Positions 8,901-60,215 of a stretch of 64,000 bases of DNA are shown piece after piece (within the stretch, counting starts at the first letter, position 1; each line of letters opens with the position of its first letter). Origin of the DNA: Sclerodactyla briareus (Eukaryota; Echinodermata; Holothuroidea; Dendrochirotida; Sclerodactylidae); NCBI GenBank assembly GCA_026419785.1, contig JAODTK010005232.1, positions 124,001 to 188,000 of the forward strand, written 5' to 3'. The position numbers and the translations under genes were made by a program. A model generated the notes under the pieces. The model made no database searches. It was given only the letters and a program-made list of their open reading frames with translations, and was not told where the DNA came from.

Positions 8901-11900
8901 CCAGCGACTAGGCCATGTGGAAGGCAGTGGGGTGTGCCGTCGGCGCCAACCCGGGGTGTTGGTGTCCGGTATGGTGGTGGCATCCTGTGCCGTTGTAACC
9001 GCTACGAGCGAGGGGGGGTTCCCCTATGCGGGTCCCTGGCTGTCTTGAGCCCGCTTGGTTGTTTGGCTGCGCATGACAGACCCGCTCTGGTCCACCCTGG
9101 TTCAACCTTGCCAGTGGACTTAGAATTCTGACTCTCTTGACGTACCTGTACCGGGATGATCGGTTCCGTGCGGTAAATGGCACCTCTCAAAGCGTGCTCA
9201 CTTAGCCTGGAACTTACTGGCGTGTCTGTCCGTGTAAAGACAACAGCCTCTCGAAGGGGTCCACGGACTCACCGGCGGAGGGAATAATGTTTGGGGTGCT
9301 CCTCGTCTCAGGCCCGTGTTCCATTCCCCAAACTCTTCTCTCCACATATCCTAACCGTGCCTGTTCCGGCGCAGAACGGAGGGACCTGAATAACGCTGAA
9401 ACGGCTGAAAACGTAGGTCCGTTCCGTGTTTGGGGCACCTCGCAAGGTCCCCACACTAACTCACTCCTCTCCCCCTGGAGTGGCCTACGAACCGCTCTCA
9501 GGGTGAGACCGTAAGAGCGGACGGTAAAAAACCTTGCGCTGCGTTATCAACTCTATTTGATCGAAACTCTGCTTTTCGCTCGTAACAGTGTTTTTTCTCC
9601 GATAACTGAGTTTTTCGACACCATTGCAATTATTCGACCAAGAGTTTAATCGCGCGATAACAGAGTTACGGTCGAAAAACAAACAATCACCTGTGGTCCA
9701 GAGTCTGTAGGCCTAGCACCAGACCATACTCCATTGTGCATTTCAGCTTCTTTTCAGACCTCACGCCAAAGATATTTTGCTCCTCCATTGACTATGCATT
9801 ACGAGGTACTGGCAACGCAAAGTCTCACCTTTGAGTGCACTAAATGCAGTCTGAACCATACTTGAGCAGGCCTCGCTGTATGTAGAGGTCCTTCCAAAGT
9901 TTCTAAATTAACCTCTGTCCAGACACACTAACTACAAACTGACTCCATGGTGTGCATGTACACCGAAGTATCATATCCAACAGAACATACACTACATCGT
10001 GAAGACTAAGCAACTTATGCGTTTTAATTCTGCGAATTTTTAGAACAACCTATTCACCACTCTAGGTTTATACATTAAATAATAGTTAAATAATTATCCT
10101 AATCATATAACAAATGTTGTCGTTTGCGTAAAAGAAGAAATACTAATAGGCCGAGCCAATGCAAACCGTACGTAACCTAGCCTACTCTCTCTCGTAACCT
10201 TGGTCCGTCCGGCAAAGGTTCGTCGTTTATTGCCAATTCGCGATGAAACGTGAGTTATGAACTAAAATTCCCAGGGTATTGTATTATTGTCAATATCTTT
10301 GAAATTCCAGAGTCAAATCTTGATTTCGTGTGATAAAAGTTTCACTTCCGCCTCAAACGCATAAAGTTGCTTTAGGCCCCTAATATTAACCAATTATAGT
10401 GCTACGTGTAGGCTGTAACTACAGGTAAAGGCTGCCCTAGGCTCCATGTTCATTAGCATAGCGAGTCATGTGTAGCCAAGGCTAGGCTAGGCTAGGTGCT
10501 AGCTGAGCCTGTGTCATACCTAAAACTTTTATTAGAAATCAGTAGGTTTTACCTCTTCTTCATGCCTTCTTCCAGAAAGTAGTGCGTAAGCCAGTGCCGA
10601 AAATCGCAGTGCAGTTACGGCTAGGCTATGTTTATGAATATGGAACCAGGCAAAGCTGGGGATGTGAACTATAACTGCATGCTACACAGTACGACGTCTT
10701 GCACAAGTTGCAGCGCAGCGCGGAAGTACTCGGAGCTGAGACAATGACAACCGATAAACAGAGTTTTTCGATAAACTCTGTTTATCGAGCGAAAAAGCAT
10801 ATTTCTTTTTCTCTCGATAAACCCTGTTTATCGGCCGATAAACAGGGTTATCAAAAAACTCTTGCTTGTCGGTCGAATAACAGGTTTTCTATCAACAAAC
10901 TGTGCTTTTCGCTGTTTGAAATAATCGAAACTCTGCTTTTCGATTCGAAAAACACTGTTTATCGATAAACAATGTGGTTAGGAGCGATAAGCAGAGTTTC
11001 CCGTCGATGAACTCTGTTTATCGACGATAAACCATGTTTTTCGCCGATAAAACTCTGTTTATCTAAAAATAACATGTTTATCGGCCTGACAGAAGCAGGT
11101 GTTTGGCCGATAAACAGAGTTATCAACCGAATAAACTCTGTTTTTATCTGAACGAAAAACACTGTTTATCGGCGAAACACTAAACTCTGTTTATCCGACC
11201 GAAAAACACTGTTTATCGGCGAAAAACACTGTTATCGAATTATTGACATCATGGTCTTGCCTATGCGCCTTGTGGAGATAGAGGTTAGAGTGTCACATGA
11301 CATATGAGGGTGAGGGGGACATAGGGGACCAACCCCGCCCCCCCATAACCTGAGGTCACCTGCCCCTCCCTACCGGGAGGGGGTGGGAAGAATCCTGCTC
11401 GGATGGCGAAGCTACGCCCGAGGGTCCGATCTCGGCGCGCTCCCCCTACTACTGGAGGGGGGCACGGTTCGGAAGGGGGTCCACAGGAAGCCACACATCT
11501 TATTCTATCTGCAAAAAAAAAAATTGAATTTTTTTTGCCCGGGGGTTAGATAGAGCCGGGCAAAAAACATGCATAGATTAACCATGTCTGGGATGGCCCC
11601 CCAAGACATCCGTAGTACAATACATGAATATTCAGGCAGACAGTAATATGTGCATGACGACACAACAGGAAATGAGGTCTCATGGTGGCCGGCCAGCCGC
11701 TAGCCGAGCGAGAACAAGCCCAATGAGGGCTTTGTACGTGCTAGGCCTTCCATACATGCACCGTAGCAGGCAAGCGGGAGCGCAGCTCCCGTATGTACAG
11801 TGTGTGAGAATGCTAACGATAACCCAATGGGAGGATCGGAGTGACACCCCAAGCAAGACCTCAAATGGAAAACTTCCTAACGGAAGGGCACAAAAGGGCC

Positions 11901-17900: not shown

Positions 17901-20900
17901 GGTTAAGCTAATTGACAGATTTCAAGGTCTGCCATCCAATGACACACATTCTGAGTAAAAACTTTACTATGTACTCTTATCTAACGAAGAATCGCTAACA
18001 AAACATATACTCTTTCAAACGGCTAAGGAGACTCCTGAGAGGTTCCCTTGAGCAAAAAATACACGCATTTAGATTAGGACATACCTTGATATCGACGTCT
18101 AGAACGACTCGTGTTCGGATGATCTGGTCCTTCATGACCTCATCTAGCAACACACAGATTTAATCTGCAGATCTTCAAACTTACAGATATACCCGAACCA
18201 GGAGAGGCTCTGTCACTAGAAGGAATGAAAATGTCGATGAATGGATATAAAAATGGGACAAATGGTACAAAACATATTATGACAATAAAATTCCAATATT
18301 AATGTTAGTGTTGGAAGAATCAGAGTAAATCTTGATGAACAACACACCCTGAAGTGAACAAGCAGCCAGTGTATGAGGGGCATTCTTTAAAACGGCATGG
18401 TCTGATGTTTTGGCATTATGGCTGTTTCTCAGGTTGTACTTTGTCTGAAGGAGATTTGAGCTGACCATGACGAGGATGTTCTTTTCTCGGATATGTTATA
18501 CACATGTTTGCATCTCTGACGACCACAATATGAACTCTGGCAACCAGAGATTAAATAGGTTTGGTTTGTTCTTCCAAATAATAGCTCATCAGGCCCCTTC
18601 GATGTCCCTTGTCCTTGAATCCCTGACACCCGGTAGGTTCATAGTCCCATTGATCTCATGAATGAGTATGATAGTATCAACTGAATGCTAAGAAAGCTTT
18701 TTTTTTTTTTTCAAAGAACAGTTAATTATGCCCTGCATTCACCTTGACCTTACATCCCCGCACACCAGTGCATCACTTGTTCATGATAACACTGACTGGG
18801 TATGCTAGTGATCCAAACTGATCTGTGGGCTTCCTGAGCTGATTCAGAATATCACCCAGTCTGTTGATTCCACCATCAGCAGCAGTGGTGCCTTCATATG
18901 TATATGTTCAATGGATAGATCCCTCTCTCAATTTTGTTTGGTCCTCACTGGTTAGCAAATGTGTGCAGTGAACTTTGGCAGAACAGTTATGGTAAAGTGA
19001 ATTCAGAGCTCACTACTGGTGGTGACTGCATGGCTTCCTGATAGTTGAGTGGAGGGAGGGTCTGCAGGGGAGGTGACCCACACCCTTTCGAGATATTTCT
19101 GATTAGTTCAGGGTCCCAGATTACAATCTGGTTTTACCTTGGCTGAAACATCAGCGTCAGGAATATTTATATTTTTTTTCGAGTAAAAATATACAAACAA
19201 ACAGGAAAAGCCGCATCTCAAAGACTTTCACCTGGAATGACATAATTCCCCTGTAAGATCTTCAAATCCCCCCCAGAGGACCGCCCCCCCACTCCTCTCC
19301 TGGGAAGCACTGCTCTCTAATAACATATCTACCTCTTTTAGTCGTTTTCTAAGGCCATGGTTTGCCTCTTTAGAGCTAACAGTGGTTTTCTAGTAAAACT
19401 TCTCAACCATAATGACATTGGCCTATCTTGATCTTCGCTCAATTTTCTTTGTTTTCAGAACTCTTCATGAAGAGAAAACCCTATTTTCCAAGTCCAAAGA
19501 CTTTATAACAGGATTGAAATAGAGTTCGGTGAACAAAACTGAAATAGCAGGTTTTCTTCAACTTCGTGTTTACCCTCACCTCAGGGTCAAGATTTCTGAA
19601 GATATACATTCTGGTCTTCTCCATCATAGCAAAGAGCTCAACGTTATCCTCTGCCCACCTCATGTCCCACACATCCTTCCTCTCAAATCAGCGCTGACCT
19701 ACGACCTCTTGACCTTCAGGGTTGACCCACTTAGCCTCAAGGTCAAAGAAGGTCAATATACCAGAGATATCGATGATTGCCAGTCGACTGGTAATGGAAG
19801 AATAGGAAACAAATTTCTGTGAGGAGACAAGTGGGTACATGGACCGCTATATAGTCTTGCTTTTCTCACAATCAAGTGGTGGTTGTTTCATTTTGCATTT
19901 AGTATCTTTCAACTATCCTGATCTTAGAAATCAGAAGAGAGAGAATTGCCAGTAAGTAGATAATAACAGCATAATCTAAAAGCATATAGAGGTGGGTAAA
20001 GTTTGCAGGCCTCCAGCAAGTTGGGGGAAAATTTTTTATAAATTTATTTTTATTTCATGGAGATGTTTATGCTTATTATGCCACGTTTGCGATTTTTTGG
20101 GCAATTTTATGCCATATGTATGTAAATTGCTATTTGTTGAGAACCACACCTGTTTGGACATAGGGTATCTGTAACCGTCCCAAGCCCCTGTCTGGTTAAT
20201 AATTGTCACATTTAATGTCCTTTTTCATGCAAGTTCTTCCACTGTTCTAGGATACTGAGAACAACTGCTTCAGTGCTATAGCCCCGGGAAAAAGACATGT
20301 GGCATAATGCATGCATATCAAGCTGTCCACTTTGTAACGCCTGCACAGATGCTAGTCCTCGCCATGTCCTCTTTCTCAATGGCTTTCCAGAATGCAATAT
20401 GCACATGGTGAGGGAACATACTGGACTATCCTGATTTCTTTCGTCGCAAGTTACCGCGCGTTTCTTTCAACAAAAAACTAACAATCAGATCACCCATACC
20501 AATATGCAGGAGGTACTTTTGTAGCCCTCTTCATCATGTGACCACTCCTTGAATTGCATACCATCTCTTCTGTTTTACAGTGGACTCCGAAAAAAAACAA
20601 ACACGATCTGCAAACAAATCACACCCTTTCTCTTCTTGGATCAGTACAGTACTGCTGTATCCATCATACTGCTGCTTTATCTGCGAGGTTGTGGTTTCAT
20701 CCACCTTGAAGGCAATGGAATGTTCTAATGTTCACGATCACCACGTCGTTAAGATATGGCTCTATGCCAACTGGACCCATACTTCATCTTTGTCTGTCCT
20801 TGTTATGGTTCTTGCGAATATCAAATCAGGGAACATACTCTGAAGCGCTCTGCATCATCATTTGTGCTTGCTAAGGCGTAGGTGGACATCAACAACTTTT

Positions 20901-23900
20901 AATGCTTTGACAGCTTCAACCTTCAGAATGATTCATCTTTTATCAATTATGCTACCTTCAGAACGTTGGGGACCTTTTATGCCTGACTGACTGTCCTTTC
21001 ACAAGTCTCTTTAAGCTGAACCTGCTTCCATGTGATCATTCATGAGAAAGATCAGAGCCACCAATTCTGAATTTCTTCTTACTAATAGTACAGTAAGGCA
21101 CTGGTGGTATCACCTTCGACACTCTTGACCTAGGGAATTCTCCCACCCAAAATTTCACAGTAAGTTGTCTGTTCTATTCTATTGGCAATTCACCCTCTGG
21201 ATCTTCCTGAAAAAGTGAAGAAGACCTATTCCATAAAATTCAATTGTTAGTGATCACACCAACCCAACATTGGGTGTGGAGTTTGTTGAGCAAAACATGA
21301 ATGAAATTCCTCTGCCTCTTCACATTTTGGACAGCATTGAATTGAAGGATCAGGTCAACTATCCTAATGAAGTTCGGGACTGACGTAGGAAGCCTACCGA
21401 GCTAGCCTAATGCATGGATATGACAAGAAACCAAGAGCAATGTGGTGCAGTAGTTCCAAACCATGTTATGGCAGCCATCTTGGATGTTCAATGCCACGTT
21501 TTATGAAATAAAACAGTCAACCACAGCTCTGCTCCTGAACACAACAGTTTGGAGTTGACTCTATCTATATAGTAGAGTGATAACATGTGCTAACATTTGC
21601 AAATCAAACCTGGCTCAGATGGCCTTTCCCGCATGCCAAACACAGGGAGCAGTAGTTTGAAACTATGATAAACACAGGAAACTATGCATTTGCCTGATCA
21701 AGTTAAGATTAAAAAACATGAGGAGTGCTAGGCCCATGCCCGTCAAATTACTACAGAAAGATGATGCAGTAATAATTTGCTGTCAATATGGGTAATACTT
21801 TTAAAATGGCAATTAAGAAATGACCCAAGATCTGGTGACAATTCGATGTGGTAAAGTATTTACTGCTAAATCATGCCACAAGCATATACCCTGGTTTGAC
21901 ATAAACAGAGCATCAATGTGCTGTAGCTCGTATTATCAATATATTAAAAGACAATGCAGGCTTGGTTACACAGCGGTTATTATTATGGAGAACGGAAAAC
22001 TGTATCTATAGGTCCAAACCCCATTTCAATACGATGTTCCTATGTAGATTATTGGCCGTCAAAAGATTGAGCAATTCGGCAGCGAAACTTGTGGGAGAAT
22101 CCCAATGGTGCAATAACGCTGAAGTCACACATGGACAACAACGGTAATTAGTTTTATTTGACTTGGTTCATTTGTGAAATAGTCAACATTTATCAGTCAA
22201 GTTCGGTAGTCTTTCTCTAACCACAGTACTATCAACACCTAACCACCCACGACAGCAATCCTCTCCCCTAGACTAAATGTTTTCGAAGTGAAATTAATGT
22301 TTGAGTTTCAATAGAAAACACAGAATGTTTGCCAGGGTTGTGCAAGGATGCATCATTCATTATTGCATGATGGGATGCATTTCGCATCGTGCGCAATACC
22401 ACATGCTTCACACATGCAACAAACTCAGATGACTGTAACTCTGTGTTTGTAACGGAAAGTCTATGAACTTCCGGTTTGGACTGAGGCATTCAGTTTTTAT
22501 CCAGATTTAAATAGCCTGTGTGAATCATCCCTGCAGTTGCCCTTTCGTTGAATGTTAATGGGATGAGGTTGACAAAAATGTTACGGTCAATCAGCCTACC
22601 CATCAACCTAGAAGCCTGATTGCTTGATAGCCCCAATTGTCTTTCGACAACTTTGCATGAAATTGGGAACCAAATAGTCAATTATATGACTGACAAACTA
22701 TGCAAGAAAGCCAACTTCATCTGTAAAAGCAAGCAGCAAGGATTTTGTTGTATTTTCACAAATGAGTATTCAATTGCCTCAATTCCCGAACACACCCCAC
22801 GTGCACCCGTGACGGACAATTACCCAACCCGGTCAATTCCCCCTCAACGGAATGTTTTTTTGTGGTCAGAATTAGGGTCAGGAATAAAATTGTCCGGTGG
22901 GAGTTTGTCCGGGAACCGTCTGGGCCACGGTCAGTGATGGCATCTGAGCAAATACATGACTCTCCAACTATTAGAGAAGCAGTTATTTGACCTTTTCACC
23001 CCCAAAAATAACCATTTAGGGTCCAAAGTGAGAACTAGATGACCAATGACCCCATTTCAGCAGACATCCCACATGTACCATTGAGTCAGTGATGACATGA
23101 CGATATCATAATAAGTCCAAATCAATCTATAGGCGAATCATTTTGACTGTTGATCCCAAAATGGACCCTTTGTGCCCCCTAAAGGACCCTTGACCCCAAG
23201 TTCCTGAACACCCCATATGCCCCACAGGTCGTGAGGACATTGACACCATATCATGATCACCCCATTCAATCTGAAGAAAGAAAGCATTTTTGGCCGTGTG
23301 ACCCCAAAATAACCTTTGGTGGTCAAAAATAACCCTAACGATCTTTGATAAATCCCTGAAACACCCTATCGGTATTGACAGTTAATGACATATTACTGAC
23401 CATTATAGACAAAATACGATTAATGCAGGAGAGCATTGGCATATTGTCACAAAATGGCCCAAAAACTGACCCCTAGATGACCTTTGACCTCAATTTTTTA
23501 AACACCCCAGACGGGACCTTCACTTGGTCTCCTTTGACCAGTTGTTCATCTTATCCATGAAAGAATGGAGAGAGGAGAGGAGCATTAACCAATGGTTGAA
23601 TGGCAGTATAAGATCAATACTATATGTCAGCTTATACCACCATGCAGCTCTATACTCAATCTAATAATTCACAATAATAGCTGCAGTGATTCAAACGAGG
23701 TGGGTATAACTGATACTTCTCTAAGGGGGCATTAGACTAGGAAGGAGGAGTGCTTAGAACAGGGAGATAAGGGTGGAAGGTGATAGAATCTTTTATAAAT
23801 TAGATGTAGGACATGGGTTCTGTTATTAATGTTCACATAACAGCATCAGATTAAAAATGTTTTCATTAAAAAATCTTATAGGCCTAAGTACTGTTGCATG

Positions 23901-26900
23901 AACATTGCAGTGTGCTGTCTAAAAAACATCAAGGAGAATTAAGGCAGAAGCTGTATCCCAACTGTGAGCAATGTGGAGTACATATGTAACCTACACACAT
24001 GACATTTCATGAGACATTAAGGATGAGACAGATATTTATAAGCAATAATATCATTTTTATCACAAATTTTATGATTTTTATGATTTACCCTCAATTTATG
24101 CTATTTTCTGCTATCTGCCCAGTGTCAACCATATTTTAGGAATTTTATGATTTTATGCCACTCTGGGAGGCCTGAGTTTGCCAGCCCTTAAATGCACTAC
24201 CTATAGATGGCACTAATCAGTGACCATTCTCAAATTCATTAGAAATGGTTGTTGACTATGTCTCCTATGGAAAACCAAAGCTTTGGGAAATGGACTAGTT
24301 ATAGCCTAAGTTAGCAAATTAGACACATTCTTGGCCACCAGTGACCATCTAGAATTTGGAATATCTCAGGATGAGGGTGGACAGCACTCAATTGGCCCCA
24401 GGGAATTCAAACAGACTTGAATTAGGCACATTACTGCAGGACTTAAGATCTGTGCTAAAAGAAATTCAGGACTAGAAGTAAACCATACACACCAAGTACC
24501 ATGAGACTCATTAGCATCATTTAAGTGAAATTCTGTCAAATTATACACATCGAATGACCTACAGTGACCACGACTCGATGTGGGAAATTCGGAACTGAAA
24601 GTGAACCATGAATTATGAAAGAGGAGACATCCAAATAAACTCCAGTTACCCATGACTCTTTGTTGAAACAATTCGAGGACTAAAGGTAGACCATTTTCAC
24701 CAAGTTTTGTGAGAATCCGACAGAATTTCACATTCTGCATAACTTATGCATATTGAAAAACAAATTGTACCTTGCAAGACAAAAAATATGTCACAAAAAG
24801 TCAATGTGTTACTTCATCTAGTCACGATGTTGCATGGTCAGTTCTCTCCTTTTAGAGGAACCCAGAAATGATAGGGAATGGAAAATATACCATCAGAAAA
24901 TGTTATGTTAGTTGTCTAATGAATTTCAGTCAGTAAGAGAGACTTAACAGAACTGAATTAATTAATTCATAATCAATCATTGGAGCTGAGAGTGTCTTGT
25001 AGGCTTATATCATCCGACCACCAGTCAAGAAGATTAGGTGAGTGATCACAGGTGCTCATCCCGATCAATATGGCTAGGGTCCCTTGATGTGCCTTTACTG
25101 TGACCTTCCTGAACCTGTAAACATTATTAGTTGGTTATTGTACAGTTGAAATTGAAGAGTAGTTTAGGGATATTGCATGTGGAGGTAGCTAATAGGAGTA
25201 CGTACCTTGGGTTACCATTGAGGGATATCACGGGGAGCCATGTACATACCTCGAGATACAACTGAGGTATAATTGAGCAATATGGCGTGTGAACAGTAGT
25301 TAATATGTGTGCGTACCTCGAGTTACAGTTGAGGGATAGTTGAGTGATATGGCGTGTGAACAGTAGTTAATATGTGTGCGTACCTCGAGTTACAGTTGAG
25401 GGATAGTTGAGTGATATGGCGTGTGAACAGTAGTTAAATATGTGTGCGTACCTTGAGTTACAGTTGAGGGATAGTTGAGTGATATGGTGTGTGAACAGTA
25501 GTTAAATATGTGTGCGTACCTCGAGTTACAGTTGAGGGATAGTTGAGTGATATGGTGTGTGAACAGTAGTTAAATATGTGTGCGTACCTTGAGTTACAGT
25601 TGAGGGATAGTTGAGTGATATGGCGTGTGAACAGTAGTTAAATATGTGTGCGTACCTCGAGTTACAGTTGAGGGATAGTTGAGTGATATGGCGTGTGAAC
25701 AGTAGTTAATATGTGTGCGTACCTCGAGTTACAGTTGAGGGATAGTTGAGTGATATGGCGTGTGAACAGTAGTTAATATGTGTGCGTACCTTGAGTTACA
25801 GTTGAGGGATATCGCATGAGGACGGTAGTTAATGATGTGGTTTTTTGACCAGTGTACGTGCGGGAGCGAGTAGCAGTTGAAGGTCCCAGACTCTCTGCCA
25901 ATCACCAGTAGCTTTTCTGAGGCACAGACACAACAGATCTGGTCAGTGGTTGGCTGGAAGGAGATCAAAACAGACGACAAGAATCAGAATCCAACACGCT
26001 AAATCTACCTCCTGCAGAGATTTACTAGTCAAAATGCCCAATGGATATGAAAGCCTAGTGTCAGCCATTCTACACTCAGTATGGTGAGAAATCCAATGTC
26101 AAGCAGATGTTATTTCCTTGCAGGTGTATATTATACCTTGTAAAATTTTGTGAAGAAACTTACGATCAGTGCTCAAACTCAAAGTTCCATTCAGCCTTCA
26201 TTTCGATCCTTTCCACCCACAAAGCTACCCGTACTGTAGTTTAAAAAAAAGTGTTGAAATGATAGTATTGAGTCAAAATTTGTGTGGTGAAACAAATATA
26301 TTTGTTACAGCCGGCCAGCTTTTTTGAAAATTTGAACAAACTGATCACCATTTTCTCCAAAATAGAAATGATTTGAGTGTAGTTGTGACTGAAGTTCTTC
26401 TGTAGATGAGGCATCGAACGATGGCATTCATTTTCATTATCATTGATGCTCATTTCTGAATATTGCAAAGGCTGAATGGAGCTTTAATGCCAAATGTCCA
26501 ATTTGAAATATTATCACATAATTGTTAGGATGGGTTGGCATACTTGTCAGAACACTACATTGAGGGTGGAAATAAAGTTACCAATTTGCCATCATTGGCA
26601 GAAAGACAAAATTGTTCAAGAAAATAACACCCAGAAATAAAGAGGAAGCAACTGATCTGAGAACTTACAGCGAATGCCTTACTGAAGTCCAGCATTCCTT
26701 CCCCAGCCCCAGATGGCGTGTCGTCGATGTGGTAGACCTTCTCCCGACCATCTCGCTTCTTACTGACGGCGGTGTTCACCTCCATGGCTGTCAGTTTCTT
26801 TGCTGACTTGAACTGCCAGATGTAGAATGCCTCCCTCGATGCAAGCTGATTCCAATGGGTGTTGGTGACAGCAACGTAGCAGGGCTCTTACAGGATTGAC

Positions 26901-29900
26901 ACAAGAAAAGAGTTGAAATGTTAAAAGTTGAAATGTGGTCAAATCGGCATTATATAGGTTTTCTATCTAATGGAAGCCAATGTGAACTCTTGCAGTAGTG
27001 CATGACATACCTCGATTCGGAATGACCATCCATAATGATACAACAAATGATTATCGGCTTGCCAGCGGGTCTGTTAATGTATTTCTTTAAGATGCACAAG
27101 AATAAACTACTGATGGACATCATTGACTGTACCTGTGAAGGCTGTGTTCTGCCCAGGATTACCATCAGATTTCATAGGCCTATGTAAATATGCTCGGGGT
27201 GGGAGTTAGCTCTGAAGTTTGCTTATATCTTGTATTCCATAGTGACGTTGGTTCATAGCTTCTCTTTGTTGACTTTTTTAAAATCTGGGCCCACATATCA
27301 TACCTCCAACTGTCTGGCAGCAGTGCGCTTGTCTGGGAGGCAGAAGTTATGTAGGATTTTTGCCCCACAGAAAATGATTTCGGTTGACACTGCTATTTTG
27401 CCAATGCAATCAAACCTCAACCATTTCTAATCTTTATAAGTCAAATAACTTTGGGTAAGGTAGTGGCAAAATATGCAGACCATTCAATCATGCATATTAC
27501 GTGATAGGTTCTTGATGCATTGAATCACAATGAAAATTAGGCCAAAATTGATTTCTCTTACATAGATGTCTGGGATATATTCACTTCATACTTATGTTGT
27601 AATTATAATGGTACAAGCTGAATGAAAAACTGGGTGTGCTGGCTGCTGATTGCGCTTGTTGGGGGGGGGGGGCACGACTGGTTTTCCATGAGCTGTCCTA
27701 CAGCATGTGCCATCCTGTAGCTAGTTCAGTATTTTCTTCAAATTTGGTTCACCTAAATTTAATGAGTCTGTGCTGTTCTTTGTTCTTGTTCTAATCAGCT
27801 GCCATATTTACAACAAACACTACATATGCATACAAAGAGGACCCATTCACCAATCAAACCTGACACGGCAAGTTTATCAGCCAGTCATCCAATCAGAAAC
27901 CTAATCACAAAGCACTAATGTTCTTGTTGTGCAAGCAATGTTCAACATTCCAGTTAGTACTGCGATCATTGTTATGAAAATGGAAACTGCATGTGCTCCC
28001 TCCATACTTATGTTGTAATTACAAATTCTACCTTCAACTGAAAGTTGGTGGCAACAAACTATCCCCATGTTCTCTAAGTATTGCATACTCAGCCTCTAGG
28101 CCATGAGCAAGTGACCAAGTATCGCAATTCACAATACGGGAGTCCCTGGTTCCGTAAAGGACGGTCATACCCACCCCTTAACAAATTCTATGTAAGCATT
28201 ACAAATGAGGCTGTGTATGACATTGTGCCGAAAGACAATTCCACTGTTCCACCACTGGGTAAGCACTGTGATGCTGCTAGTAACACCGGATAGTTAAAAC
28301 ATTATCTAACTAACTCACCGATGTCAATGTATTTGGACTCCAGTGGGGTTCCAATTGAATTGCACAAGACCAGGACATACTGTGGTGAAAGAGAAGAGAA
28401 TATAAAACAACAGCACCAATGGTGCTATCGCTCAAACGTGCACAATGTACCAGACGAATGTACAATTATATGTCAAATGTTCAAGATCATGAGGCCAAGA
28501 AAGACAGTTTCAAGCAATGGCCTATTGTGCCCCTGTAACAACCTTGACAATGATTTCATATAGCCGAAAATGTCTTATCAGTCAATGAACATTGTTGCTC
28601 ACTTTTTAACAGTCAAATCCATCCAAGAATGCCCAATGAGAGAGAAAGAGTAATTTCACACAATGGCCTATTGCACCCCTTGATACCTTGACCTTCAACG
28701 TGCACAAAAGAAGTCGATTAACATTGGGTCCAAGAAATGTTCCACCATCGAAGAATGACTGTTTTGCTTGCTTTTCATCAAATGTTACTATTTTAATTGT
28801 AACGACGCTATATGATGTTGCATCCAAAATCTGCAAACAAGCTGAAAAGAGCCCTCCAAAGGAACATTATAACATTTTTCAAAAATCTAATGTCCTTTGT
28901 AGGAGAGAGCCATTTTGAATTTTTATAGATAATGGCCTATATTGCCCATGACCTTTGACCCTGACTTTTACGAAGTCAACATGTCTCATGGGTCAATTAA
29001 CAATGTGTCCAAGTTTGTTCGACATCCTCACAGAATGACTGTTTGAGTAGAAAGGCTGTAAGGTATGACTATTCCATCATTATGATAAAGCAGAAGCACT
29101 GTAGGAGGAGAAACAGTTTGCTTGATTGCACGTGGTGGGCCCTCGGGCCCAAACTGGACCTCAAGTCCAAAATTCCTGAGAACCCTGAAGGTATGGCTAT
29201 TAGACCCTATAGACAAAACCAGCAGCATGAATTGTGCATCAAATTTGTGGAAGCATTTTGCCAGATTTAACATGATGGGCCCTCGGGCCCACATTGGGCC
29301 TTCAGCCAGAAGTTGGCAAACACCCCGATGGACCACTAACCGAGGAGAATTACATGTGATTTTAAAGAAAATCAATTGGTACAGTTTAAGTATGCATTTC
29401 AAGTACCATTGTGTGAAATTTCATAGAATGGCCTCGGGCCCATTGGGACTTGGTATTGAAATTCGAACCCCGCAAAAGGTATCGACTGTTAGACCATCAT
29501 TATGACTGAATGTCATAATGTGCACCAGAACTTGTTAAGAGGAGAAGCATTTTGCGTAATTCCACATGGTGGGCCATCGGGCCCACACTAGGCTTTGGGT
29601 TGGGTCCCGAATCCCTGGGCACCCTGAAAGTGCAGCTATTAGACCATCATTATGACCGAACATCAGCATGGTGCAACTAGATTTATAGGAGATACAATAT
29701 TTAACAGTATTTCATCTAATGGGCCCTGGGGCCAAATTCATTGAACACGCCCCATGGCCCTCTACCAAAGGCCATTACATGTAACTTTGGAGAAAATCAA
29801 TTGGAGGGGAGGAGAGCTTTTCAAGCACTATTGTGTAAATATAATAAACACATCCTGGGCCCAAGTCGGACCTTGGGAACAAAAATCCTGAACACCCCGA

Positions 29901-32900
29901 AGGACGTCTATGAGACCATCATTATGAAGCCGAATATTAGACTGTGCAACTAATTTGTTAGGAGGATACAAGATTTTGTTTGCGGGATTTCACATAGGAC
30001 CCTTTGGCCCCAATGGCCTGTGTGCTCAAAATTCTGAACAACCACATTGGAAACATAACATGTAACTTTGAAGAAAAACTTAAAGTCTTGGGAGAAGATG
30101 CATTTTCAAGTAGTACATGTGTTGAATTCATAAAATGGGCCCTCGGGCCCAAGTGGGGACCTTGGATTACAAAATTCCTGAACACACCGAAGGTACGGCT
30201 GATAGGACCATCATTATGATGAACATCGCACTGTTGCCACCAAAATTTGTAGGAGAGGTAGCATTTGCAGTTCTCCCACTATTGGCCCATTGGGCCCCTT
30301 TAATGCCATTTGACCCTTGGACCTTTAGGTGGTCAACGATAACCCAGTTATAGTCAATAACATGTGACCAGTTTGTGGCGAGATTCATCGAAGCACAAAC
30401 ATTCTGTGCCCAAAAAGCAAAAGTTTACAGACTGGATGGATGGATGGATGGATAGATAGAAGGTCGATAGATAGATAGATAGATAGATTAGAGATTGGAA
30501 GACATGGGCAACACAATAGCTCAACAAGCATAGCTGGTTGAGCTAAAAACAAATCGGGGTTTGGGGCATCTGTGAACCCTCATCGGACCATGCACCCCTC
30601 AATATGGTACCGAGTGTCTGGCATTTTACATAGTACGAGTTGAAAACCCCATCGCCCTTCTCTTTTTCCAGGGCTATGTGTACGTATGGCGAAATAAATG
30701 AGGTAATCAGTATTCTAACGTGTCAAGGAGATAAGACAATATAACCCATCCATACCAAACCTGGTGTAAGATGGTGCCACTGTAGCCATTTAGGTTGCAA
30801 TGTTAATCTAATGTGATGCAATGGAGCAAGCCGGATTGTATTAGTATATACAGATCACAAGTTACTTTCTTAGAATCCATTCGGTGTAATCAGGATTGCA
30901 TCTCAACCTCCCTAATATTAGGTGTTCTGCGGGCAGTCAATTATTATGAGGGGCACGTAACATGTGAGAGCATCAGCCAGCCCCAATCAAAAAGGCCAAT
31001 GATAGAGAAGCTCTGCAGGTGCGGCCGGCGAGTGAAAGTTATTGCATACATCATTAAACCACAGTCTACACCTATCAGCCAAGCCGAGCAACATAGTGGA
31101 GTTCAAGAACAATGGTGCTACAGCCAGACATCTTAATAACGTACCATGATGTTACTTTTTGAAAATAACTAGGATGAGATTAATCCACCTGACATAGTAG
31201 AGTCTAAAACTAATGCCTGCAGAGTTTCAAGCTATGGGGCAATATGTTTTCATGGAGTAAGAGAGGAACTGACATGCAGGTTTTCTTTCTTCATGGGCTG
31301 GTTACTTTTCAGGACAATTGACAACATTAGTGCCAAATGAAAATAGTAGAGAAGCTTGCAGGCAACAAGCTTAATATGACGACAAGTATTGCTATCACAA
31401 CAACCTTCTTTAGTCAGCTCAGAGAACACAGGACAACAATATCAGACAGCCTAATAAATGCCATCATGTAAATTAGGCTACCACTAACCTCCTGTCTAAA
31501 TGAAAACCCCACCTGATTAGAAACACAGGAACATCAGACTGAAGTTTTGACGAAAAAGTAATTATTCCATGCAGATAAAATGACCTCCTATGACTCAAAC
31601 GGATGATGACCATTGACTTGGAATCTTGAACATCCCTAAGTACCCTCTGGTTAACTGATGAAAATAACACATGCTACGATTATCTCAAATCATCTGAAAA
31701 AACCAGGGAAAGCATTTGACCCCCGAAAATGCCCTTTGGGTAAAAATATTCTTATAGATGATGCTGACCGTAGTGCTCTAGATGATCGCGGACCCCACCC
31801 CGTAGTGCTCTAGGGATGATCGTGCCGTAGTGCTCTAGAGATCGCTGACCGTAGTTCAGATGATCGCTGACCGTAGTGCACAGATGATCGATGACCGTAG
31901 TGCCTCTAGATGACGCTGACCGTCGTGCACTAGATGATCGCTACCGTAGGGCTTTAGATGATCGCTGAACGTAGTGCGATAGATGAGCTCGACCATAGTT
32001 GCTCCCTAGGATGATCGTATGACCGTATGCTCTAGATGATCGCTGACCGTGTGCTCTAGATGGAATCTTTGAATTTTTTTTTTTGTTTTGCTGACCTAGT
32101 ACTCTAGATGATCGCTGACCGTAGTGCTATAGATGACGATGACCGTAGTGCATCTGATGATGCGCTGGACCGTAGTGCTCTAGATGATCGCGGACCGTAG
32201 TGCTCTAGATGGATCAGCGAACGTAGTGCTAGATGATCGCTGACGCTGACCCCATTGCAGAAAACACCATAGCACCATGCTGCATCATGTGTTAGGCTAT
32301 GCACTGGCCACCAATTACCCCATAATTGGTATTTTTAGGAAAAAACCTAATGCTCTTCATTGGGAATAATTTGGCTTTTTTTCGCACAAGGCTCATCATG
32401 CTCTTCACACATAGCTTGTCCCATCAACTAATGGCTTTTGAGGAAAATAAAAAATGACCACTGTCAAAAACTAGATACCACTAGTCCATGATAACACTTG
32501 CCAAGTATCACAGTAATCCAACCTAATGAACTACTCAATAACGGCAGAAAAATCACCGAAAATTCTGTTTTACAATCCCCCAACCCCCTCTCTTATGACA
32601 TAAATGTTGTCACTTTGCTGGTGAAGTGCCACAAGAAATATGTTCAGTCTATACTATATATACCATACATTAAATGAGGCATGGCATATTGACTAACTTT
32701 CTCGAAAATCAATATTCAAGCTCGCAAAATTGGACCTCCATCATTGACGCAAAACTAATACATCATGCTATACTTATATAAATATACAGCATAAAAGGCA
32801 CATGGCAGTTGTGGCACATGTACTAACTTCTCGAACATCATTTTCAAGCTTGCAAAATTAGATCTCACATATAATGAGCAGTTAAAAACCCTCATTTACA

Positions 32901-59884: not shown

Positions 59885-60215
59885 CGACCTAGAACTCATT
59901 GTGCTGTCTACGTCCGGCAAATAATTAGTAATCAAGTCATTATTATGGATCGAGACGGGCTGAATAATGAGTAGTTAAGTAATTTTTATGAATCTGGATC
60001 GGCAGAATAACGAAAAACTAAGTCATTATTAATGAATTGAGAGAGGAGGAATAGACCAGTGTTAATTCATTAGATGACGGGATAGGCAGGATAACGAGCA
60101 TCTAAGTCATTATTATGCCCTCCGAAATAGACGATAATGAGAGAGAAGTTCGTTATTACGGAATGAGACGGTGCAATAAATAATGACTAAGAACTCATTA
60201 TTACGGCACTGGAAA
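59885..60215. repeat. Tandem units containing the palindrome AATAATGACTTAGTCATTATT (degenerate)
   Basis: Five or six diverged units of about 55-65 bp with AAGTCATTATTATG, GAGACGG or GAGAGAGG, and AATAATGA or ATAACGA phrases (59937, 60024, 60107, 60154, 60195). Each unit is itself partly palindromic. A shorter inverted version is present in the left arm of the same element (55931, 56107-56165). Confidence 0.75.

Follow-up and report, generated by a model that had tools for sequence, protein, structure and literature searches.

The intron that follows one exon of WDR35 in the holothuroid Sclerodactyla briareus opens with a run of nine tandem units, each of which ends in a sequence resembling the 5' splice site of that exon. 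How did so many candidate donors come to stand in a row, and which of them would be used? Having analysed a window of 64,000 nt (the whole stretch from 124,001 to 188,000 of contig JAODTK010005232.1, GCA_026419785.1), we think it most probable that the array is a neutral minisatellite spanning the exon-intron border, of the kind called "mirages" in amphioxus, that it arose in two rounds, and that the first donor, the one joined to the exon, is normally used.

The host gene can be recognized from both protein family and structure databases. The open reading frame that encloses the exon (25983-25729) matches the Pfam family Beta-prop_WDR35_2nd (PF23390) with an E-value of 2.2e-20, and the exon (25953-25790, minus strand) codes for part of the second beta-propeller of WDR35/IFT121. 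When this exon and the next are joined, the product aligns without gaps to PDB chains named WD repeat-containing protein 35 over NCNS/SRLAIID, which fixes the true donor as AAG/GTACGC after 25790 (Table 1). This one contig carries five WDR35 exon matches in order, and none lies elsewhere among the matches listed, from which the poor copy on a second contig, considered below, is absent too. The exon that bears the array is intact. An in-frame TGA interrupts the next exon (19690-19688, minus strand), between residues that align to WDR35 on both sides; it may be an assembly error, a variant or a real lesion, and the assembled copy may accordingly contain an error or be damaged. Other tandem repeats were seen in the window, namely an array between WDR35 exon matches at 31800-32244 (24/49 bp, 73% matches) and short arrays at 59914-60042 and 11132-11237 (43 bp x 3; units of 20-47 bp).

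Table 1. Coordinates of the WDR35 exon, its intron and the units of the array in the window, and (last three rows) of multi-copy arrays at other exon matches in the genome
Feature	Position	Strand	Size	Remarks	Evidence
WDR35 exon	25790-25953	-	164 nt	Ends with true donor AAG/GTACGC	PF23390; PDB WDR35 alignment across the join; start by eye from acceptor ttccag
Host intron	19788-25789	-	6002 nt	3' end attaccag; next exon begins at 19787	Join backed by PDB alignment
Unit 1	25723-25789	-	67 nt	Terminal donor GAG/GTACGC; holds the in-frame TAA	
In-frame TAA	25729-25731	-		Encountered by any transcript running past the true donor	
Unit 2	25656-25722	-	67 nt		
Unit 3	25588-25655	-	68 nt	Donor 9-mer identical to true donor	
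Unit 4	25520-25587	-	68 nt		
Unit 5	25452-25519	-	68 nt	Donor 9-mer identical to true donor	
Unit 6	25384-25451	-	68 nt		
Unit 7	25317-25383	-	67 nt		
Unit 8	25250-25316	-	67 nt	Decayed, 7-9 substitutions relative to units 1-7; donor GAG/GTATGT	
Unit 9	25206-25249	-	44 nt	Decayed; 11-base word not doubled; donor AAG/GTACGT	
Unit 10 remnant	25157-25205	-		Exon-like; no donor visible at its end	Local alignment 42, shuffle maximum 31
L037	1713-2146			PTK7-like kinase exon (closest PDB match PTK7)	TRF 77 bp, 5.7 copies
L024	1510-2287			Kinase exon	TRF 171 bp, 4.4 copies
L022	762-1500			Kinase exon; 63-bp array with about the last 11 exon bases, next to the donor	

The nine units run downwards from 25789, with lengths of 67, 67, 68, 68, 68, 68, 67, 67 and 44 nt, and each ends in [AG]AG/GTA[CT]G[CT]; TRF reports the array at 25247-25811 with a period of 68, 8.4 copies and 96% matches. 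The initial annotation had located eight donors by their last exon-like base, at 25790 (the true one), 25723, 25656, 25588, 25520, 25452, 25384 and 25317. All eight positions are correct, and its picture of a true donor followed by seven close and two decayed copies is borne out, the decayed donors following 25250 and 25206. Over the 37 bases from -22 to +15, the true donor, unit 3 and unit 5 are identical, and five more copies differ from the true donor by a single base, at -3. Set aside one extra T, and units 1-7 differ from each other by only 0-2 substitutions. Two hallmarks of mirages are found here: tandem units containing exon and intron sequence of one border, and homogenised inner units (1-7) next to a diverged edge unit (8).

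The copied segment is longer than the last 20 exon bases per unit originally described. It comprises about 45 exon bases, from TTAACTAC to the exon end, and at least the first 12 bases of the intron, the exon part and the intron start both being present in units 1-8. When the border was aligned with its copies, units 1, 8, 9 and 10 scored 67, 34, 44 and 42, exceeding in every case the maxima of 33, 24, 25 and 31 obtained from 1000 dinucleotide shuffles per target; the top border match in the remaining intron (25139-19800) scores only 19. The anatomy of the units and these alignments support the earlier proposal that the array grew by tandem duplication across the WDR35 exon-intron border. Because the copied exon part is coding sequence with WDR35 homologues in other species, the direction of copying was from exon to intron.

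Two features of the units bear on how this growth proceeded. The 11-base word ATCNCTCAACT occurs twice in units 1-8 (decayed in unit 8), but the exon and unit 9 each have it a single time. Also, between the exon and units 1-7, the final 21 bases differ by 0-1, against 6-7 for the 33 exon-like bases that are older, which is consistent with two rounds of duplication. We infer a history in which an early tandem duplication would have placed in the intron a copy of the border, made up of roughly the last 45 bases of the WDR35 exon and the first dozen of the intron. A segment of 67/68 bases, from the start of ATCNCTCAACT in the exon to its end in the old copy, would then have been duplicated; with the endpoints inside this word, the step would leave it doubled in units 1-8 and single in the exon and unit 9. 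Units 1-7 would have stayed alike through repeated exchange, while those farther from the exon decayed. As an alternative to the second step, a separate 11-base duplication within the old copy, amplified later, is possible.

It might be asked whether the array exists at all in this form. A second contig of the same assembly (C2743, 10,703 bp) covers 31255-20599 in an alignment of 85% overall identity that is broken by numerous small gaps; its identity is 96-100% at 24301-24800 and 21301-21800 and 60-91% elsewhere, as if it were unpolished long-read sequence, close to raw reads, that had been polished in patches. Read by eye, its array consists of seven close and two decayed units, as on the main contig, with both flanks included. 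Its clearly readable units agree with those of the main contig in having A or G at -3, except unit 1, and units 4 and 5 each show one further A/G difference. It may represent the second haplotype, or else derive from reads of the first, which would have gone into the main contig too, so that the equal array length (7+2) possibly does not come from two haplotypes. A simple assembly artefact, a concern raised from the start, is unlikely given that this contig spans the array and both flanks. More broadly, that the array is an artefact or the contig a decayed copy of WDR35 seems very improbable to us: the poor quality of C2743, which comes from the same assembly, and the TGA in the next exon would fit such a reading, but the order of variant units is nearly the same on the two contigs where readable, the graded decay of units 8-10 and the 67/68 variants are unlike simple collapse or inflation, and a decayed copy is hard to reconcile with five exon matches in order on one contig (among the matches listed) and an intact array exon. 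Among the matches listed, 165 bases of the array match just the WDR35 locus and C2743 in the 319-Mb assembly (3171 contigs); a dispersed repeat or transposon is thus unsupported.

The consequences of using a copied donor can be read from the frame. The initial annotation expected transcripts that gain 67-68 bp per unit, mostly out of frame, but the outcome is a different one. The in-frame TAA (25731-25729) precedes the first copied donor, so that the truncated protein would be identical for all nine copied donors, even where the added length is 270 or 540 bases; the true donor alone is predicted to give WDR35. Since any copied donor brings the same early stop and cannot make WDR35, the first donor is probably the one normally used, and the array probably neutral. 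The strength of the donors was scored with a human-type matrix: the true donor scores 7.85, as do units 3 and 5, units 1, 2, 4, 6 and 7 score 7.05, and units 8 and 9 score 8.69 and 9.12. By the same matrix, the true donor and all nine copies rank above 98% of the GTs on that strand of the whole window. That units 8 and 9 outscore the true donor is a point against first-donor use. In vitro, when a donor is present in identical duplicates, the one closest to the acceptor can be preferred. If that copy were favoured here, the array would be harmful and not neutral, which counts against the neutral reading. The array RNA folds more weakly than all 100 of 100 shuffles (z +4.8), and the donors are therefore predicted to be open. 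A structured RNA element was rejected on the grounds of this weak folding and of the lack of any Rfam match at gathering score in 19000-32500.

Two other uses of the copies deserve to be weighed against neutrality. Every unit begins with GT and ends with AG immediately before the next GT, and it would be tempting to see in each a GT...AG/GT cassette and in the array a run of recursive splice sites, by which the intron is removed stepwise and an identical donor rebuilt at each step. Stepwise removal would leave the mRNA unchanged and make the array harmless by construction. However, the would-be acceptors (GAG or AAG) lack, by eye, a strong pyrimidine tract and, at the distance where one would be expected, a good branch site, and units of 67 nt are close to the lower size limit of animal introns; we regard recursive splicing as extremely improbable. 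The other idea, which we judge unlikely, is that splicing does make use of the copied donors, in the manner of human IFI6 (6-16), with a steady share of premature-stop WDR35 transcripts passing to nonsense-mediated decay and the length of the array tuning WDR35 output. On the human-type matrix, units 3 and 5 equal and units 8 and 9 exceed the true donor, all copies sit behind the same stop, the array RNA, with little predicted structure, should be accessible to U1, and IFI6 is said to employ downstream repeat units as donors (PMC4526556). Against this, amphioxus mirages are reported not to disturb splicing in the accounts given by PMC3087553 and PMC3902484, and length-dependent regulation shows no sign, the sole other contig found having the same copy number.

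Is WDR35 alone in this genome in having its donor multiplied? We examined 63 exon matches (54 loci plus 9 matches) to WDR35, sialyltransferase, kinase, kinesin and myosin, with flanks of up to 1500 bases, and flagged a border when its score beat the highest of 60 first-order Markov resamples by more than 6. The profile search yields few exons even for large families (39 kinase and 8 myosin matches). Sialyltransferase GT29 gave 3 matches, and searches for COX1, the GFP family, the molluscan haemocyanin domain and the annelid linker found none, an absence that carries little weight at such a yield. In the border test, in which the ends of the HMM matches only approximate those of the exons, several matches come from one gene and sensitivity is incomplete for donors and acceptors alike, donor-side copies were flagged at 5 of 63 matches: L012, which is the index WDR35 exon, L022, L024 and L037 with multiple copies, and L053 with a single one. 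With the index left out, multi-copy donor-border arrays thus occur at 3 of the 62 other exon matches, in addition to one single short copy. Acceptor-side copies were flagged at none of the 63, L022 coming closest (33 against 29). Among the matches listed, L037 has five copies of the last ~31 exon bases with the donor region and intron start; L024 has four, each with a GTAAG donor, of which three include at least 58 exon bases and the fourth ~27; and L022 has, besides its array, older copies with ~41 and ~56 exon bases. The exon of L024 and its first two copies contain TAG, and the third copy along is without it. L053 has one 23-base copy, made of 19 exon bases and GTGA. An earlier self-BLAST of 46 loci had flagged six, these five and the kinesin exon L052, which we reject as a border array: its array lies about 30 bases into the intron, appears by eye not to be exon-derived, and was unflagged in the border test.

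As a control, 80-base stretches from the flanks of 62 loci, taken 400 bases in, were treated in the same way. Downstream, 6 of 62 were flagged (L035, L052 and L061, besides L012, L022 and L024, where the border arrays themselves were picked up once more), and upstream 4 of 62 (L014, L020, L028 and L056). An enrichment of arrays at donors was accordingly not found in these flanks, where the frequency of border arrays is close to the background rate for tandem repeats. As tandem repeats are common in the control flanks, the most reasonable view is that the donor arrays are ordinary minisatellites that caught a border and were tolerated. This tolerance could partly reflect damaged genes, assembly errors or poor sequence. 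In three of the four genes with multi-copy arrays there are in-frame stops in or near the exon (the next WDR35 exon, the L022 exon with TGA and the L024 exon; L037 has none). When 12 loci were translated, L028, which has no border array, was found to have internal stops too, and in most of the other loci the stops fall close to the match ends, possibly because the match runs into an intron there. We judge it unlikely that donor-border arrays are a regular feature of the genome while acceptor-border arrays are not, on the ground that the first exon-joined donor is taken whereas copied acceptors are used and purged; the count of 4 versus 0, with the index left out, is too small to prove an asymmetry.

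The reading as a neutral border-spanning minisatellite has precedents. In amphioxus globin genes, minisatellite-like tandem duplications of exon-intron boundaries have been described that seemingly do not interfere with regular splicing (PMC3087553), under a name that goes back to the Adh3 case (Canestro 2002, as cited there). Similar repeats are described in PGBD5, with TnC cited as a further case (PMC3902484). Mirages are described as length-variable, and in these two papers the name is used only for cephalochordates. As presented there, the amphioxus mirages (Adh3, TnC and the globins BflGb6 and BflGb9, with PGBD5 similar) share with the WDR35 array the tandem copies of a border-spanning piece, a common range of unit sizes (10-72 bp in Adh3, 150-160 bp in the globins), many copies that carry AG/GT, and inner units that are homogenised beside an edge unit that has diverged. 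The WDR35 array differs in lying in another gene and in showing no difference in length between two contigs.

The unit of the human IFI6 minisatellite is about 12 nt long, whereas that of the WDR35 array has 67/68 nt with about 45 exon bases. Both are minisatellites at an exon end that offer several donors in a row, and according to PMC4526556, which cites Turri 1995, IFI6 uses two downstream repeat units as donors, while the WDR35 copies are putative donors; the title of Turri 1995, on the IFI6 (6-16) minisatellite, is also cited in PMC2572611. A further relative is the gain of introns when an AGGT segment is duplicated in tandem (Rogers 1989; Hellsten 2011, as cited in PMC4974935), in which, as in the WDR35 array, the duplicated segment holds AG/GT and the copies offer GT and AG. 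However, AGGT duplication as described in that source makes a new intron, whereas the WDR35 array lengthens an existing one and its copied AGs look poor as acceptors by eye. The initial annotation knew of no standard description of such a donor array. This stands for WDR35, for which no description together with a minisatellite was found in the literature searched, but not for the class: mirages and the IFI6 donor minisatellite are already known, and the WDR35 array is a new case of it.

What makes the locus of interest is that the true donor and near-identical copies of it lie on one transcript, so that donor choice is unreadable from the local sequence. The WDR35 array is therefore a clean natural test of whether donors are chosen by their order, by their exon context or by their nearness to the acceptor. 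If donor-border arrays did prove to be a regular feature of this genome, they would form a large set of natural experiments, in which position or exon context, not local donor sequence, would set donor choice. As such arrays recur in the same genome, with three further multi-copy cases among 62 other exon matches, this is testable more than once.
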